Assembly (NCBI GenBank): GCA_020725025.1
Contig: DYFV01000005.1
Location: 1-64,000, forward strand
Origin: Azoarcus sp.
Lineage (GTDB): Bacteria > Pseudomonadota > Gammaproteobacteria > Burkholderiales > Rhodocyclaceae
DNA: 64,000 bases
Reading direction: 5' to 3'
The notes beneath the pieces were generated by a model that saw only the letters and a program-made list of their open reading frames with translations, was not told where the DNA came from and searched no databases. How positions within the stretch are numbered: the first letter of the stretch is position 1; each line of letters starts with the position of its first letter. Position numbers and translations under genes: made by a program. Shown here piece after piece: positions 8,195 through 44,437 of this stretch.

Positions 8195-10117
<1,923 letters not shown>

Positions 10118-10169: not shown

Positions 10170-10185
10170 TGTCGCAAAGTCGACA
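10170..10185. promoter_or_regulatory. NifA upstream activator site (SIR2/hemerythrin operon)
   Basis: TGT-CGCAAAGTCG-ACA, an exact TGT-N10-ACA match, 53 bp after the draT stop. Its centre is 92 bp from the GG of the sigma54 promoter at 10268-10282. Confidence 0.87.
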
Positions 10186-10267
10186 AGCGCCTTCCCTGCC
10201 GTCGACATCATGCATGCGGTCGCGGGCAGCTTCCGCGTGCGTCAAGGGATCGGCGGGCATCTTCCGA

Positions 10268-10282
10268 TGGCACCGTTCTTGC
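10268..10282 (+). promoter_or_regulatory. Sigma54 -24/-12 promoter of the SIR2-like gene
   Basis: TGGCACCGTTCTTGC on the plus strand, with correct GG-N10-GC spacing, 43 bases before the start codon at 10325. Together with the NifA site at 10170-10185 it predicts induction with nitrogenase. Confidence 0.9.
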
Positions 10283-10324
10283 GCCTGTCCCGTCGAGTTT
10301 CCCCGACACCCGACAGGAAGACCC

Positions 10325-11173
10325 ATGAACCCGATCTTCGACGAGATTCGCGCCGGGCTGACCGCCGGCGAGGTGGTGCCCTTCATCGGCCCCGACGCCC
10401 TGGTGGACGTCGTGCACGCCACGACCGGCCGCAAGATGCCCGCCACCAGCGAGGAGCTGATCCTCGCGCTCAACAACGGCCAGCCGATGGCCCCGCGCCT
10501 GATGTACGAATTCCCGCGCGCGGCGATGAACGTGGAGCTCAAGCGCGGCCGCAGCGCGGTGAACCGCTTCCTGGAGCAGACCTACGCCGACCGGCAGTGG
10601 TCGGAGGCCGGCGTGCACGCCTGGCTCGCCGGGCAAAGGCTTCCCTACATCGTGGATCTCAACCGCGACACCGGGCTGCAGCGGCGCTACGCCACCCGGC
10701 CGCACACCCTTGTAGTCGGCGTGGCCCGCATCGCCGGCACCGCCTACCGCTTCAAACTCTATCGCCACGACGGCACCGGCTACTCGGCGGCGGTGGACGA
10801 GTCGGAGATCGATCCCTCCGCGCCGGTGCTCTTCAAACCCTGCGGCAGCCCCTGGCCGGAGCCCAACTGGATCGCCTCGGACGCGGACTATGTGGACTAC
10901 ATCACCGAGCTCATGGGCGGCTTCGCCATACCCGCCTTCCTCAAGGCGCGCCGCCAGGGCCTGCGCTATCTGGTGGCCGGGCTGCGCCTGAACCGGGATA
11001 CGCAGCGCATGATGCTCTCCGACATCGTCTACGGCGCCGCCCAGCCCGCGGGCTGGGCACTCATCCCCGGCGCGAGCGACAAGGAGAAGCGCTTCTGCGC
11101 GCGGCTGGGGCTCGAGGTGCTCGACGCCGACCTGAGCGAGCTCGCCGGCCTGGCGAAAGCAGTGGCCGCATGA
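10325..11173 (+). CDS. SIR2-like domain protein under predicted NifA control
   Basis: A 282-residue soluble protein. The N-terminal part (about 1-200) resembles a degenerate SIR2-like Rossmann domain: GEVVPFIGPDAL near 13-24 in place of the usual FxGAG loop, then IVDLNRDTGLQ where relatives have a TTNYD segment. NAD binding or cleavage is possible but not shown; glycines of the usual motif are changed. The start at 10325 has AGGAAG upstream and fits the sigma54 promoter. The stop overlaps the hemerythrin start (ATGA). The position behind draT suggests a role tied to nitrogenase regulation, oxygen or NAD state. Confidence 0.75.
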   Translation: MNPIFDEIRAGLTAGEVVPFIGPDALVDVVHATTGRKMPATSEELILALNNGQPMAPRLMYEFPRAAMNVELKRGRSAVNRFLEQTYADRQWSEAGVHAWLAGQRLPYIVDLNRDTGLQRRYATRPHTLVVGVARIAGTAYRFKLYRHDGTGYSAAVDESEIDPSAPVLFKPCGSPWPEPNWIASDADYVDYITELMGGFAIPAFLKARRQGLRYLVAGLRLNRDTQRMMLSDIVYGAAQPAGWALIPGASDKEKRFCARLGLEVLDADLSELAGLAKAVAA

Positions 11174-11565
11174 GCGGACTCGCCTGGGACGACACCCGGC
11201 ACGGGCTGGGGGTGGCGGAGATGGACGCGACGCACCGCGAGTTCGTGACGATGGCGGTGGCGCTCGCCCAAGCCGACGACGCCGCCTTCCCGCCACTCTT
11301 CGCGCGGCTCCTCGACCACACCCGCAGCCATTTCGCCGCCGAGGACGCGAAGATGCGCGCGAGCCGCCTCCCCGCCATCGGCGAACATGTGGGCGAGCAC
11401 CAGCGCGTGCTCGCCGAGCTGCGCGCCTTCAACCGCAGTGTGCAGGCCGGCCGCCTGAGGCTGGCGCGCGCCTACGTGCGGGAGAGCCTGCCCGAGTGGT
11501 TCGCCCTGCACCTCGCCACCATGGACTCCGCCCTGGCCGCGCACCTGCGCCGCCAGGCGGCATGA
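11170..11565 (+). CDS. Bacteriohemerythrin
   Basis: A 131-residue single-domain hemerythrin. The di-iron ligands are visible in order: His in DATHREF, the pair in HTRSHFAAED, HVGEHQ, and His/Asp in HLATMDS. Such proteins bind O2 reversibly and act as carriers or sensors. Translational coupling (4-base overlap) to the SIR2-like gene and the shared NifA-type promoter suggest it protects nitrogenase from oxygen or delivers O2 to a high-affinity oxidase. That role is inferred. Confidence 0.92.
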   Translation: MSGLAWDDTRHGLGVAEMDATHREFVTMAVALAQADDAAFPPLFARLLDHTRSHFAAEDAKMRASRLPAIGEHVGEHQRVLAELRAFNRSVQAGRLRLARAYVRESLPEWFALHLATMDSALAAHLRRQAA

Positions 11566-23731: not shown

Positions 23732-23947
23732 ATGACCGCCCCCTCCCGCATCGCCGCGCAGCGCCGTACCGACGACATCCGCGTCTTCCGCGAGGAGCTC
23801 GCGCGACTGGAGGCGGACGGCGTGCTGCGGCTGTCGGAGGGCCAGCGCGAGGCGGTGGCCGGGCACCACGACGCGCTCCTCGCGCGCTTCGCCGCCGCCT
23901 TCGACATCGATCGCGACGCCCGCGCGAAGCCTCAGCCCGCCGCGTAG
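23732..23947 (+). CDS. Small hypothetical protein, possibly a remnant
   Basis: A 71-residue polar, helical protein (EELARLEADGVLRLSEGQRE) with no membrane segment. Its 3' end overlaps that of draG by 16 bases in convergent orientation. The sequence reminds me of the N-terminal part of DUF2157-type membrane proteins, of which it could be a truncated remnant; this is recalled, not tested. Codon use fits a real coding region. No clear RBS is seen. Confidence 0.45.
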   Translation: MTAPSRIAAQRRTDDIRVFREELARLEADGVLRLSEGQREAVAGHHDALLARFAAAFDIDRDARAKPQPAA

Positions 23948-24894
23948 CCCGGCGCGAGCTCGATCAGGCCGGTGGCGAGGCGCACGCAGTCGCGGCGCAC
24001 CTGCACCGCGACCTGGCGCCGCCAGTCGGGGGGCAGGCCGGTCTCGCCTACCAGCGCCCCCATGATCATGCCGGCGATGGCGCCGGTGGTGTCGGCATCG
24101 CCGCCGCGATTCACCACGTCGACGAGCACCGCCGCGAAGCCGTCGTTGCCGTCGATCGCCTGCAGCACCGCGCGCATGGTGTCCACGATGAAGCCGCTGG
24201 GGTTCTCGCAGCGGCGGCCGCGGAAGGCGAAGCGCGGCTGCGCGGCCACCAGCGCGTGGGCGCGGGCGAGCACCGCCCCGATCCCGCCGCCGGCCAGGGC
24301 CACCTGCACCATGTCCACCACGCACAGGGTGGCGGCATCGGTGAGCGGGTTGTGGTGGGTGACCCGGGCCTGGGCGAGGGTCGCGTCGCGCACCGTATGC
24401 GGCTCGGCGCCGAAGGTGGCGAGCGCCACCGGCAGGCAGCGCATGGTGGCGCCGTTGCCGGCGTCGTTGGAGGGCTCGGCCGCCACCGAGCCGTGCAGGC
24501 GCCAGCGCACGATGCCGCGCCGCACGGTGTTGCCGATGTCCACCGGCTTGGCGCGCATCCAGGCGTCGAAGGCGTCGGCACAGGCCGCGGCCGTGGGTAC
24601 GCCGCCGGCGTCGAGACAGGCCTCGGCGAGGGCGAAGCTCATGGTGGTGTCGTCGGTGACCTGGCCCGGCGGGAGCCTGAGCCAGCCCCCGCCGCGAATG
24701 CGGTCGTGGGAGCCGTAGCGCGCGGCGATCTCCCGTGCGGTCATGAACTCCACCGTCGCCCCCAGGGCGTCGCCGATGGCGAGCCCGAGCATCGCGCCAC
24801 AGGCTCGGTTCACCAGCATCGCGCCACACACGAAGCGCTCGGCCTCGTCGGCCGCCCGGGGCAGGGAACGGGGGGCGAGCGCGAGGGCCGGCAT
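23932..24894 (-). CDS. draG: ADP-ribosyl-[dinitrogen reductase] hydrolase
   Basis: Removes ADP-ribose from NifH arginine and so reactivates nitrogenase. The 320-residue protein shows the ADP-ribosylglycohydrolase metal-site motifs: GLAIGDALGATVEF, the TDDTTMSFAL block, GNGATMRCLP, and GGDADTTGAIAGMIMGA near the C-terminus. The start at 24894 has GAGGAG upstream; the protein is about 25 residues longer at the N-terminus than R. rubrum DraG. It is the last gene of the nifB operon, 5 bp behind nifQ, and is far from draT, so the two can be expressed separately. Confidence 0.95.
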   Translation of the reverse strand: MPALALAPRSLPRAADEAERFVCGAMLVNRACGAMLGLAIGDALGATVEFMTAREIAARYGSHDRIRGGGWLRLPPGQVTDDTTMSFALAEACLDAGGVPTAAACADAFDAWMRAKPVDIGNTVRRGIVRWRLHGSVAAEPSNDAGNGATMRCLPVALATFGAEPHTVRDATLAQARVTHHNPLTDAATLCVVDMVQVALAGGGIGAVLARAHALVAAQPRFAFRGRRCENPSGFIVDTMRAVLQAIDGNDGFAAVLVDVVNRGGDADTTGAIAGMIMGALVGETGLPPDWRRQVAVQVRRDCVRLATGLIELAPGYAAG

Positions 24895-24899
24895 GGCGC

Positions 24900-25475
24900 T
24901 CACTCCTCGGGACCGAAGCACAGCGCGAAGTCGCTGCAGGCGTCGCAGGAGGGCGAGGTGCACACGAAGATGCCCTCGCGCTGGCAGAGCTCCCGGTAGA
25001 GGAACTTCTTCCACTTCATGTCGCGGTTGTTGGCATGGGCAAGGGCGGGGAAGTTGAGCGCGACGAGCTGCGACAGCTCCCGTCGGGACGGCAGGCCGAG
25101 GTCCTGCCACAGGTGCTCCGCGCCCATGCAGCCCGTGGCGAGGATCACGGCGACGTCCGCGCTGCCCGCGACCTGCGGATCCGCCTCGCCGCCGATGAAG
25201 CGCACCAGGTCCGGGAATTCGACCTGCAGCGCCGGCCCCCGCTCGGCGACCGCAGGCGGGCGCCACAGGAGCCCCGGGAAGTGGCGCGCCACGAGCGCGG
25301 CGAAACGCCCGGCGCCCAGGCCGAGGTCGGCGGGCAACACGCCCTCGCCCAGGGCCCAGCCTGCCAGCAGGTGCGCGAGGGTCTCGTCGTTGGGCGTGCC
25401 GGCAGCGTGGGCCATGAGGTGCGCGTGCAGGGCGACGCGGGCGGGCGAGGGGCGGTGGGCGAGCGGAGCGAGCAT
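24900..25475 (-). CDS. nifQ: NifQ, molybdenum donor for FeMo-co synthesis
   Basis: A 191-residue protein. The C-terminal Cys motif C-x4-C-x2-C-x5-C (CTSPSCDACSDFALC) is the NifQ signature and binds a [Mo-Fe3-S4] cluster. NifQ supplies molybdenum to the NifEN/NifH stage of FeMo-co assembly. The start at 25475 has GAGGAGAAC upstream; the frame extends to 25583 without conservation. It is part of the nifB operon. Confidence 0.95.
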   Translation of the reverse strand: MLAPLAHRPSPARVALHAHLMAHAAGTPNDETLAHLLAGWALGEGVLPADLGLGAGRFAALVARHFPGLLWRPPAVAERGPALQVEFPDLVRFIGGEADPQVAGSADVAVILATGCMGAEHLWQDLGLPSRRELSQLVALNFPALAHANNRDMKWKKFLYRELCQREGIFVCTSPSCDACSDFALCFGPEE

Positions 25476-26230: not shown

Positions 26231-27721
26231 TCAGGCGGCGCGGACGGCGTCGATGGGGAAGTCGAGCTTCCCGGCGGCGGCCATCTCGTCATACACGGCG
26301 CGGATGGCCTCCTCGATCGGCTCCATGGCGTGCTCGCCGTTGGGCTGGATGCCCGCGCGCTCCAGGTCGCCCCAGGGCTCGAAGCCGATCTTGCTGGCGA
26401 GCAGCACCTCCACGCCTTCGAGCGACTCGATGATCTGCCCGAGCACGGTCTCGCCGTCGCCACAGGACTCGTCGCCCATGCAGTACGGGGTGCACTTGCG
26501 GTGGCCGAGGAAGCGCTGCTCGGTGGCGGTGACCTCGTACACCAGGAACTCGTGGGCGTGGCCGAAGTGCTCGTTGATGACACCGCCGCCCTTGGTCGCC
26601 ACCGCGATGCGGATCGGGCGGGTGGCGGGCGCGGCCTGCGCGTCGGGGACGAACTTCGGCGCGGCCTTCAGCGCCCGCTTCATCTCCAGCTCGGAGCTGA
26701 TGGCCTCGTGTACCTTCGCCCGCTCGACCATGGCCGCGGCGTAGTCCACCTCCATGGCCTCGATCTTGTCGAGGGTGAACTCCTCGCCCCGGTCCTCGCC
26801 CAGCATGCCGACCGCGTCGGCGCGGCACTGGCGGCAGTGGCGCATCATGGACATGTCGCCGGCACAGGCGTCCTGCAGGGCCTCGAGCTCGAGCGCGGTC
26901 GGCTCGCGCTGGCCCATGATGCCGTAGTAGGTGCCGTGCTCGGCCTCGGCGATCAAGGGCATGACGTTGTGCAGGAAGGCGCCCTTGGCCTTGACGATCT
27001 TCGACACCTCCTTGAGGTGCTCGTCGTTCACGCCGGGGATCATCACCGAATTCACCTTCACCAGGATGCCGCGCGCGGTGAGCATCTCGAGCCCCTTCTG
27101 CTGCTGCTCGATGAGGATCTTCGCGCCCTCCACCCCGCGGATGCGCCGGTTCTCCCAGAAGATCCACGGGTAGATCTTCGCCCCGACCTCGGGATCCACG
27201 CAGTTGATGGTGATGGTGACGTGATCGATGTTGTGCTTTGCGAGCTCGTCGACGCACTCGGGCAGCGACAGGCCGTTGGTCGACACGCACAGCTTGATGT
27301 CCGGTGCCTGCTCGGAGAGCTGGCGGAAGGTCTCGAAGGTACGCACGGGGTTGGCGAGCGGGTCTCCGGGTCCGGCGATGCCCAGCACCGTCATCTGCGG
27401 GATGGCGGCCGCCACGGCGAGGGTCTTCTTTACCGCCTGGTCGGGCGTCATCAGCTCGGAGACGACCCCCGGGCGCGACTCGTTGGAGCAGTCGTACTTG
27501 CGGTTGCAGTAGTTGCACTGGATGTTGCAGGCGGGGGCCACCGCCACGTGCATGCGGGCGAAGTAGTGGTGGGCCTCCTCGGAATAACAGGGGTGGTCCT
27601 GGACCTTGGCGCGGATATGGTCGGGCAGATGCGAGAGCGCGTCCGGGGCCGTGCCGCAGCCGCTCGAGCTGCAGCCCGAGGCCGCGGCGGACGCGGCGTT
27701 GCTGATGACCGGGAGTTCCAT
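26231..27721 (-). CDS. nifB: NifB, FeMo-cofactor biosynthesis radical SAM protein
   Basis: Makes NifB-co, the [8Fe-9S-C] core of FeMo-co, using S-adenosylmethionine. The 496-residue protein has the radical SAM motif Cys65-x3-Cys69-x2-Cys72 (ACNIQCNYCN), the GPGDPLANP SAM segment, and a C-terminal NifX-like carrier domain (about 390-490, with NEHFGHAHEF). The start at 27721 has AAGGGGAT upstream; an in-frame ATG at 27748 is less likely. It is first in the operon nifB-fdx-ArsC-like-nifQ-draG, behind a perfect sigma54 promoter and two NifA sites. Confidence 0.98.
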   Translation of the reverse strand: MELPVISNAASAAASGCSSSGCGTAPDALSHLPDHIRAKVQDHPCYSEEAHHYFARMHVAVAPACNIQCNYCNRKYDCSNESRPGVVSELMTPDQAVKKTLAVAAAIPQMTVLGIAGPGDPLANPVRTFETFRQLSEQAPDIKLCVSTNGLSLPECVDELAKHNIDHVTITINCVDPEVGAKIYPWIFWENRRIRGVEGAKILIEQQQKGLEMLTARGILVKVNSVMIPGVNDEHLKEVSKIVKAKGAFLHNVMPLIAEAEHGTYYGIMGQREPTALELEALQDACAGDMSMMRHCRQCRADAVGMLGEDRGEEFTLDKIEAMEVDYAAAMVERAKVHEAISSELEMKRALKAAPKFVPDAQAAPATRPIRIAVATKGGGVINEHFGHAHEFLVYEVTATEQRFLGHRKCTPYCMGDESCGDGETVLGQIIESLEGVEVLLASKIGFEPWGDLERAGIQPNGEHAMEPIEEAIRAVYDEMAAAGKLDFPIDAVRAA

Positions 27722-27757: not shown

Positions 27758-27772
27758 GCAAGGGGCATGCCA
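27758..27772 (-). promoter_or_regulatory. Sigma54 -24/-12 promoter of the nifB operon
   Basis: Minus-strand TGGCATGCCCCTTGC, an exact consensus match with GG-N10-GC spacing, 37 bp before the nifB start codon at 27721. Confidence 0.92.
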
Positions 27773-27835: not shown

Positions 27836-27851
27836 TGTCGCACACCCGACA
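27836..27851. promoter_or_regulatory. NifA upstream activator site 1 (nifB)
   Basis: TGT-CGCACACCCG-ACA, an exact TGT-N10-ACA match, centred 73 bp from the GG of the nifB promoter. Confidence 0.85.
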
Positions 27852-33482: not shown

Positions 33483-33486
<4 letters not shown>

Positions 33487-35042
33487 CCCAGGGTCTCCGT
33501 CAGCGCGCGCTCGAGCGCGCGCGCCCCGGGAAAGGACACGCGCAGCCGACAGCCGCCGCTGTGGTGGGGGTCGAACTCGAGGACGCCTCGGTGGCGGCTC
33601 ACGATCTCCTGGGCGAGGGACAGGCCCACGCCGCGCGCGCCGGTCTTGGTCTGCTTGGTGGAGAAAAAGGGCTCGAACACCTTGAGCCGCAGCGCCTCGG
33701 GAATGCCCGGTCCGGTATCGGTGAGCTCGACCTCGATCTGGTTGCCGTGAGGCGCGGTGACGATGGAAAGGTTGCGCTCGGTCCAGCCGCGCACGTTCAT
33801 CGCCTCGATCGCGTTCGCGACGAGCTGGCGGAAGAGGGTGCGCAGGGCCGTGGGGTCGCCGTGGATGGAGGGCAGGACGTGCGCCGGACGCCAATCGACG
33901 GTGACGCCGGCCGAGAGCAGCGCGTCGGTCTCGATCATCAGCACGTCGCGCAGCACCTCGTTGAGATTCACCGGTCCGGCCACCGCCGGCAACTCGGGCG
34001 GCATCGCCGCCTGCAGGGTGGCGATCGCCTCCTCGCCGGCGCGCTGGGCGTCGGACAGCGCCTTGGCGAGCGGATCCATGGCGGCGGCGGGCCCGGCGCG
34101 CCGGCGCTGCAGCCCGGCTGCCGCGGAGATCAGGTTCACCGGCCCCTGGAGCTGGAACACCGCACCGGAGAGCGCCTCGCGCAGGCTCTGGTTGAGCTCG
34201 CCTTCGGAGAGCATGGCGCGCATCGCGGCGAGCCGCAGCGCCTCGTGCTGGCGCTTTGCGGCGCTGATGTCGTGCATGACCAGCAGCAGGTAGTCGTTGG
34301 GCGCATCCGCGTAGAACGCGTCGGGCTGGGTGCTGTGCTCCTCGAACCACGACAGCGAGCACGCGTACCAGCGGGGCTCGCCGCCGGCGCGGTCGAAGCG
34401 CAGCTCCTGGCTCAGGAGCGGCCGCCGGCGCGCCACCGCCTGGTCGAAACCCTCGCCGAGGCTGTCGCGCAGGGCGGAGAGCACCGCGTGGGCCGGCTCG
34501 CCCACCCCCATCTCCGCCACCACCCGCTTGTAGGCGGGGTTGTCGAGCACCACCTTGCCGCTGCCGTCGAGCAGCGCGACCGCCACCGGCGCCACCGAGA
34601 CCACCGACTCGACGAGGTGCTTGTGGTTGGCGAGTTGCTGGGCCAGCCGGTGCTCCTCGGTGGCGTCCCAGTGCATGCCCAGGTAGTGGATCTCGTCGGC
34701 GTCCGCCCCCGGGCTCACCACCGGGGTGACGGTGAGCTCGGCGACGTAGGGCGAACCGTCGCGGCGTCGGTTCAGGAGCCGCCCGGTCCACGCCCGCCCG
34801 GAAGTGAGCGCCGCCCACATCGCCTGGTAGACCTCCCGGGGAGTGGACTTGTAGGACAGCAGCGACTGCTTCTGCCCCACCACCTCCTGGGGCGCGTAGC
34901 CGGTGATGGCGCAGAAGGCCGGATTCACGTACAGGATGCGTGCCTCGGCGTCGGTGATGGAGATGGCGATCGCCGACTGCTCCACGGCGTAGTGGAAGAC
35001 GGACTCGGTGAAAGCGGCGGGCGTGAGGTCGGGGGCGGCCAT
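33483..35042 (-). CDS. nifL: NifL, redox- and nitrogen-responsive anti-activator of NifA
   Basis: A 519-residue protein, the same length as Azotobacter NifL. PAS1 (about 15-130) has the FAD-domain pattern VNPAFCAITGYAPQEVVGQ; PAS2 is at about 145-265. A transmitter-like part follows, with FQLQGPVNLIS as the modified H-box, an N-box (QLVANAIEAMN) and G-boxes (DTGPGIPEALRLKVFEPFFS, GVGLSLAQEI). NifL inhibits NifA directly in oxidised or nitrogen-replete cells. The start has AAAGGGAC upstream. A sigma54 promoter 33 bp before the start implies autoactivation of nifLA. Confidence 0.97.
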
Positions 35043-35074: not shown

Positions 35075-35089
35075 GCAAGCCATATGCCA
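35075..35089 (-). promoter_or_regulatory. Sigma54 -24/-12 promoter of nifLA
   Basis: Minus-strand TGGCATATGGCTTGC, an exact consensus match with correct spacing, 33 bp before the nifL start codon. Confidence 0.9.
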
Positions 35090-35182: not shown

Positions 35183-35198
35183 TGTCGCACTCCCGACA
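35183..35198. promoter_or_regulatory. Shared NifA upstream activator site (nifLA and rnf)
   Basis: TGT-CGCACTCCCG-ACA, an exact TGT-N10-ACA match. Its centre is 103 bp from the GG of the nifLA promoter and 103 bp from the GG of the rnf promoter. Confidence 0.87.
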
Positions 35199-44200: not shown

Positions 44201-44431
44201 ACAACTCCGCGATTTATGACATCAGCTTGCAATGAGGCGCGGACTGCGCTTCACTTGAGCCTGCCGGCAACTCCCACGGGACCGGGCGGTCACAGCATCT
44301 CGCACGCACACGACCAAGAGCGGGCCCGCTGACGGCAACCCGCCGTGCGGCAGCGGATCGGGCACGATCCGCCGGTGCCTCCTCCCTTCTCGAGGCGCGG
44401 CACACCCCGGCACACCTCGCAAGGTCTGTGC

Positions 44432-44437
44432 CATAAT
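44432..44437 (+). promoter_or_regulatory. Possible -10 element of recA
   Basis: CATAAT, 27 bases before the recA start codon, in a 263-bp gene-free stretch. No good -35 and no LexA box of the CTGT-N8-ACAG form were found near it, so the call is weak. Confidence 0.35.

Follow-up and report, generated by a model that had tools for sequence, protein, structure and literature searches.

A SIR2-like gene paired with a hemerythrin gene behind nif-type control signals in the draT-draG region of diazotrophic Proteobacteria

Introduction

How diazotrophs couple nitrogenase to oxygen and to the energy state of the cell is an old question. The draT region of an Azoarcus sp. raises it in a particular form: next to draT, in a stretch of 64,000 nucleotides that we call the window (the whole stretch of DNA that was analysed), a gene for a SIR2-like protein overlaps a gene for a hemerythrin. 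Do these two genes form a unit under nif control, and what could such a pair do beside DraT? A preliminary description had proposed a separate operon controlled by NifA and sigma54, possibly a system that senses or handles O2 and NAD for nitrogenase. Judged by sequence, the two genes make up one unit in the draT-draG region of diazotrophic Proteobacteria, preceded by a conserved sigma54 promoter of its own and a NifA-type site. The pair is conserved in the DraT/DraG locus together with nif-type control signals, and appears in the literature searched only as SIR2 family proteins or as locus tags in nif tables.

Results

Control sites of the gene pair

The upstream activating sequence (UAS) and the promoter that had been placed before the SIR2-like gene are both present at those positions (Table 1), and the two genes are coupled as proposed, by an ATGA in which the SIR2-like stop and the hemerythrin start overlap (11170-11173). 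The claim of an exact -24/-12 promoter holds for the core TGGCAC-N5-TTGC. The wider sigma54 consensus TGGCACG-N4-TTGCW ends in W, and against it the promoter has two mismatches (C for G after TGGCAC, and G for A/T after TTGC). The consensus is quoted as TGGCACG-N4-TTGC in a passage of PMC3916325.

Table 1. Positions of the genes and control sites in the window.
Feature	Position	Strand	Remarks
UAS, NifA-type TGT-N10-ACA	10170..10185	+	starts 98 nt 5' of promoter 10268-10282
sigma54 -24/-12 promoter TGGCACCGTTCTTGC	10268..10282	+	core TGGCAC-N5-TTGC; ends 42 nt before SIR2-like ATG
SIR2-like gene, nif-linked	10325..11173	+	282 aa; SIR2_2 fold; Cys at catalytic His position
hemerythrin gene, single-domain	11170..11565	+	131 aa; start overlaps SIR2-like stop (ATGA)
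draT (dinitrogenase reductase ADP-ribosyltransferase)	9338..10117	+	PF07357, 300 bits; neighbour upstream of SIR2-like gene
nifH	8195..9088	-	divergent to draT; TIGR01287, 474.6 bits
sigma54 promoter before nifH	9159..9173	-	paired TGT-N10-ACA at 9272-9287
ORF containing draG	23932..25266	-	ADP-ribosylglycohydrolase (PF03747) match at 24028-24798
sigma54 promoter before nifB (26231-27721)	27758..27772	-	paired TGT-N10-ACA at 27836-27851
sigma54 promoter before nifL (33483-35042)	35075..35089	-	paired TGT-N10-ACA at 35183-35198

In the window, TGGCAY-N5-TTGC occurs five times against 0.15 expected; TGT-N10-ACA alone is not significant (6 versus 3.56 expected). Four of the five promoters have a TGT-N10-ACA 64-99 nt upstream, a pairing that was found in none of 200 Markov shuffles of the window, and these four pairs precede the SIR2-like gene, nifH, nifB and nifL. 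The fifth exact match of sigma54 type (44419-44433, minus strand) has neither a UAS nor an evident gene downstream. The PF03747 match in the draG-containing ORF is the only one found in the genome.

Between 9000 and 12100, no terminator-like or sigma70-like site was found. Since a terminator-like site is missing there, read-through from draT into the SIR2-like gene is possible, and it is the promoter of the SIR2-like gene itself, 42 nt from the ATG, that speaks for a separate operon.

Conservation of the promoter in related loci

For the promoter count, 124 stretches qualified in which the SIR2-like match reached 200 bits or more and no less than 300 nt of upstream sequence was available; seven identical gene starts were dropped. 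The remaining 117 loci belong to the same subfamily as the window gene (the window subfamily); loci of a second, nifT-linked subfamily were left out of this count. Of the 117 loci, 99 have the pattern GG[CT]N7TTGC in the interval 25-65 nt ahead of the start codon (100 rounds of shuffling gave a mean of 1.17 and a maximum of 4); as related loci share ancestry, such counts do not stand for independent events. Eight other intervals of equal width had the pattern in 0-7 loci each. Among the 99 promoter-bearing loci, 50 also have a TGT-N10-ACA at a distance of 50-150 nt upstream of the promoter (null mean 1.28, largest 5). Many of the other 49 are titled Gallionella, Sideroxydans, Thiobacillus or Nitrosomonadales, and NifA control is less well supported for these. 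The reading of the promoter as a chance match was rejected, given its conservation in related loci and the absence of promoter/UAS pairs from the 200 shuffles.

Published SIR2 genes of nif clusters

Published data bear on the same point. In Azoarcus BH72, azo0536 is one of eight genes with RpoN and NifA sites that changed under N2 fixation and were NifA-regulated; the passage concerned gives no direction of change, and names azo0538 as nifH (PMC3916325). A primer from that paper occurs in two of our genomes, G026 and G086, and is absent from G130, G067 and G115. The gene order in G026 is hemerythrin, SIR2-like gene, draT and then nifH on the other strand, and on account of this order azo0536 is probably the SIR2-like gene. 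About 3 kb separate draT and the SIR2-like gene in G086. The conserved promoter and, if the identification by gene order holds, the published NifA regulation of azo0536 support NifA/sigma54 control of the unit, in agreement with the preliminary description.

Other nif clusters contain SIR2 proteins as well. The Rhodobacter capsulatus SIR2 family protein Rcc03262, beside NifT, was measured in the wild type and is given as NF in the nifA1-A2 deletion (PMC6925177, Table 1). Zymomonas ZMO1821 is up under N2 fixation according to passages of PMC8600466, whose authors predict a deacetylase function, and of PMC8594446, where draT and draG are stated as not annotated in Zymomonas. PST_1325 of Pseudomonas stutzeri A1501 stands beside nifH (PST_1326) in an expression table (PMC11332353), and a SIR2-like gene follows nifT in Rhodovulum (PMC9412634). 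These genes share the nif location of the window gene, and are NifA-dependent (azo0536, Rcc03262) or up under N2 fixation (ZMO1821). We liken azo0536, Rcc03262, ZMO1821 and PST_1325 to the window gene by context rather than by alignment, and the passages name neither a hemerythrin partner nor a lost catalytic residue.

The SIR2 passage of PMC11227200 names no nif cluster, and neither the passage of PMC3770913 nor that of PMC3188489 is about the SIR2-like/hemerythrin pair; PMC3770913 reports nif genes and 14 hemerythrins in Sideroxydans ES-1, and no nif genes and three hemerythrins in Gallionella ES-2. No publication that joins hemerythrin to draT, to SIR2, or to NifA in Azoarcus was found in a literature that lacked most subscription journals. 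The earlier remark that the system is not characterised is thus accurate for the pairing with a hemerythrin, which was not found in the literature searched, and too broad for nif-cluster SIR2 proteins, which are in print together with the NifA dependence of one of them.

The SIR2-like protein

The window protein matches Pfam SIR2_2 (PF13289) at 25.6 bits, over the cut-off of 24.5. At E up to 0.1, the same family was matched by 54 of 60 window-subfamily proteins and by all 14 of the nifT-linked set. In the predicted model (pLDDT 91), a SIR2 fold extends over the whole chain, and the best structural matches, along the length of the model, are the defence-type SIR2 NADases KomC, ThsA and DSR2, with sirtuin deacetylases well below. 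A search of solved structures with profile A3 gave only one match, to a repeat protein (E 0.69). Neither the SIR2-like protein nor the hemerythrin matches ADP-ribosyltransferase or hydrolase models. None of three proteins matched PADLOC-DB at E up to 1, and a missing model match excludes no defence system.

The position of the catalytic His was located by a profile alignment of the nifT-linked sister subfamily, where YKPIG stands against YKMHG of ThsA, and a joint alignment carries it to the window subfamily. The His of ThsA is presumably catalytic; H146 of KomC and H171 of DSR2, the mutated residues in PDB titles, were taken as the catalytic His of these proteins. Among 60 aligned proteins of the window subfamily the position is occupied by Leu (26), Met (20) or Cys (14), and never by His; the nifT-linked subfamily has His in one of 14. 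This one, the sole case among the 74 proteins of alignments A3 and A4, is a SIR2 family gene on a plasmid of Mesorhizobium sp. AR02 (L173, 5944-6867), which reads YTPHG and has Trp in place of the adjacent Asn.

The Asn of the T-N-Y-D motif is kept in 60/60 proteins of the window subfamily, as D-x-N-R-D, and the Pro and Gly of the nucleotide loop, the N-R-D motif and His127 are invariant. In the nifT-linked set, the motif Asn is present in one of 14 proteins and mostly replaced by Trp (11/14), so that nucleotide binding common to both subfamilies is not assured. Sirtuins have a four-Cys zinc site. Since 17 of 60 subfamily proteins contain no Cys at all (the window protein has two), such a site cannot be general in the subfamily.

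The sequence evidence makes the protein a single-domain member of the SIR2_2 NADase fold with the catalytic His position replaced. NAD hydrolysis is unlikely because the catalytic position is not His; NAD binding is suggested by the fold of the model. With KomC, ThsA and DSR2, SIR2 NADases of phage defence, the protein shares the fold (with KomC also the single domain), but it has another residue in place of their catalytic His, lies in a nif rather than a defence context, and would not be expected to cleave NAD. It differs from CobB-type sirtuin deacetylases in having neither the catalytic His nor the conserved Cys set for the zinc site.

The hemerythrin

What had been called a bacteriohemerythrin is a hemerythrin by TIGR02481 (65.2 bits, cut-off 51.75) and PF01814 (30.6, cut-off 25.3), but with the narrower bacteriohemerythrin model NF033749 it scores 59 bits, under the cut-off of 84. 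H22, H54, E58, H73, H77, H114 and D119, which we take to be the iron-ligand positions of the hemerythrin family (five His, one Glu, one Asp), are each kept in 72/72 nif-linked hemerythrins and also in 18 other hemerythrins of family genomes. Judging by these ligands, the protein probably binds O2. A sequence search against solved structures returned no match for the hemerythrin.

The 72 distinct hemerythrins of the stretches group with three encoded at other places in their genomes in a single clade (local support 0.911) that excludes the 18 others; the 72 include that of L090, beside nifH without a SIR2-like gene, and L074 was left out of the tree. The window protein thus shares with single-domain bacterial hemerythrins an HHE domain over the cut-off and all seven ligands, and differs from them in its separate clade, its score under the NF033749 cut-off and its nif linkage. 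An apparent SIR2-hemerythrin fusion in L074 was rejected, because the contig is a draft and the SIR2 match there shifts from one reading frame to another. One hemerythrin of the nif-linked clade (L176, 4355-4729) lies in a genome (G003) with neither nifH over the cut-off nor a SIR2-like match.

Gene order around draT and draG

We found draT in 73 of the 117 window-subfamily loci, upstream on the same strand in 72 of the 73 and no more than 450 nt away in 38. In 42 loci there is a draG homologue, downstream and facing the SIR2-like gene in all 42. A hemerythrin was found in 73 loci; in the other 44, some of them short stretches, no hemerythrin was seen. The nifH gene was found in 71 loci, upstream and divergent in 70. 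All these counts are lower bounds, since many of the stretches stop short of draT or draG. The draG homologues were assigned by their similarity to a single member of the cluster, with a Pfam scan on the window's draG alone. The hemerythrin start lies between -10 and +60 nt from the SIR2-like stop in 54 of 72 same-strand cases, in many as an ATGA overlap. In the family sample (see below), draT is present in 45 of 47 genomes with the window subfamily and in eight of 11 with the nifT-linked subfamily.

The gene pair thus shares a locus with the DraT/DraG nitrogenase switch-off system, the SIR2-like gene lying between draT and draG in many genomes, but the SIR2-like family is also found without draT. 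Given the 44 loci with no hemerythrin, the SIR2-like protein can probably act without it.

Several arrangements deviate from the common one. A protein of 153-190 residues (153 perhaps being a shortened reading) is encoded directly 3' of the SIR2-like gene in L047, L057, L062, L063, L064 and L071, and in five of these six loci the hemerythrin comes next. No Pfam match was found for a 150-residue piece of one such protein. In L042, L149, L150, L152 and L153, the SIR2-like gene is directly followed by an ORF of 692-693 residues, and no hemerythrin was found there. In L140, L163, L167 and L168, the SIR2-like gene and nifH are immediate, divergent neighbours and no draT or hemerythrin was found in the stretch, an arrangement like that of the neighbours PST_1325/PST_1326 of P. 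stutzeri.

A second subfamily linked to nifT

Proteins of the nifT-linked subfamily are 24-31 percent identical to those of the window subfamily. All 11 family-sample loci have a gene for NifT or NifZ-NifT at most about 2.4 kb upstream, in the same orientation (by similarity clustering, with Pfam on two), and these 11 stretches contain no hemerythrin match. On Rhizobium etli p42d, the SIR2-like gene comes last in the order fixA, fixB, FAD-binding protein, ferredoxin, nifA, nifB, 4Fe-4S protein, nifZ, nifT. A Mesorhizobium plasmid has a similar order, with the SIR2-like gene directly after nifT; it is the third gene after nifT in a Paraburkholderia plasmid and the fifth in a Methylococcus plasmid.

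No draT is annotated beside the SIR2-like gene in these four plasmid records, and three of the 11 sampled genomes with this subfamily have no draT match. By this evidence draT is not needed for the SIR2-like protein, and dependence on draT is not general. The SIR2-like gene thus seems to be an older accessory of nif, with the hemerythrin and the dra setting belonging to one branch.

Occurrence with nif genes

Of 98 sampled genomes with a SIR2-like gene, each counted once (two were in more than one sample), 96 have nif evidence, meaning a match to nifH or to the nifD profile, in six of the 96 only by sub-cut-off matches. The family sample (150 genomes) has 58 genomes with a strong SIR2-like match, 59 with nifH over the cut-off and 52 with both; the 58 were 60 before G044 and G103 were dropped (E 2.2e-5 and 7.6e-5, within long other frames). 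Five of the six SIR2-like genomes without nifH over the cut-off have nifD-profile matches, two over the cut-off and three below it, the latter being fragments in G132 and G138 and perhaps nifE in G140. The sixth, G065, has no nifD match; one short contig of it carries the SIR2-like gene together with a hemerythrin and a draG homologue.

The class sample (321 genomes) has the SIR2-like gene in 27, nifH over the cut-off in 28 and both in 24; the remaining three are G228 with a partial nifH (352 bits, below the cut-off), G417, where nifD is full, and G313, where the SIR2-like match is weak (E 4.7e-21) and no nif was found. In the phylum sample (339 genomes) the numbers are 16, 36 and 13, and the remaining three have nifD-profile matches, two of them below the cut-off. 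The pair is therefore not common in non-diazotrophs in these samples. The link to draT and nif that had been suggested stands for nif and, within the window subfamily, for draT/draG, and does not extend to draT in general, as the nifT-linked subfamily demonstrates.

The reverse association is incomplete. Genomes with nifH and no SIR2-like gene number 7/59 in the family sample (strong set), 4/28 in the class sample and 23/36 in the phylum sample, so that the gene is not essential for fixation. A tblastn search of one genome per species gave 528 relatives; the best 80 of these 528, which were kept, include Azoarcus, Thauera, Pseudothauera, Zoogloea, Gallionella, Sideroxydans, Thiobacillus and Oceanobacter.

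Discussion

We tentatively favour a non-catalytic role for the SIR2-like protein, as an accessory factor of nitrogenase linked to O2 through its hemerythrin. The SIR2-like protein would bind a nucleotide of the NAD/ADP-ribose kind and act on nitrogenase or its partners. In draT/draG lineages it would be made together with an O2-binding hemerythrin, which may tie its action to O2, or shield it from O2, while nitrogenase is made at low O2. The likeliest targets by gene order would be the NifH modification pair DraT/DraG, and an older role, common to the nifT-linked subfamily, would concern nitrogenase itself or its maturation. The nifT-linked branch argues for nitrogenase or its maturation as the primary partner, and the dra branch with its hemerythrin for an added role related to O2.

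The main alternative, possible if somewhat doubtful, is that the two are independent nif accessory genes which use one promoter. The hemerythrin would then buffer or scavenge O2 on behalf of nitrogenase or a high-affinity oxidase, and the SIR2-like protein would be a nitrogenase maturation or stability factor of the nifZ/nifT kind; neither sensing nor a connection with NAD or DraT would be involved. The NifT or NifZ-NifT genes upstream in 11/11 nifT-linked loci, with no hemerythrin match in those 11, fit this explanation, as do the 44 of 117 window-subfamily loci where no hemerythrin was seen. It accounts less well for the close spacing of 54 of the 72 same-strand hemerythrins to the SIR2-like stop, which suggests co-production, and for the nif-linked hemerythrins being one clade of their own.

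Another reading, which we regard as unlikely, would have a defence-type SIR2 NADase turned into a dead-enzyme receptor for NAD/ADP-ribose that serves only nitrogen fixation. In draT/draG lineages, this receptor would form a unit with the O2-binding hemerythrin and set the DraT/DraG balance, so that nitrogenase would be switched off by O2 and by the NAD state of the cell. PII is the known ammonium route of nitrogenase switch-off, and an O2/NAD route would stand beside it.

An active NAD-dependent deacetylase or NADase, which would control nitrogenase through deacetylation or through depletion of the NAD required by DraT, is improbable. The SIR2 fold itself would suit such an enzyme, a deacetylase function is predicted for ZMO1821 by the authors of PMC8600466, and another residue, for example the invariant His127, may be catalytic. 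We rejected this reading for want of the catalytic His, its position being Leu, Met or Cys in 60/60 window-subfamily proteins and His in only 1/14 of the nifT-linked ones; the ranking of defence NADases above sirtuin deacetylases and the 17/60 proteins without Cys, which leave no general four-Cys zinc site, point the same way. A defence-NADase fold without its catalytic His speaks against the published deacetylase expectation for a SIR2 protein of this nif kind, and opens the way to a direct test by genetics in Azoarcus.

A phage-defence gene, or a relic of one carried along with the nif region by chance, is very improbable and was rejected: the closest solved structures are indeed phage-defence NADases, but there is no PADLOC model match, residues are invariant and the promoter is conserved across many genera, the nif link is present in three samples, and a SIR2 family protein of Rhodobacter is NifA-dependent (PMC6925177, Table 1).
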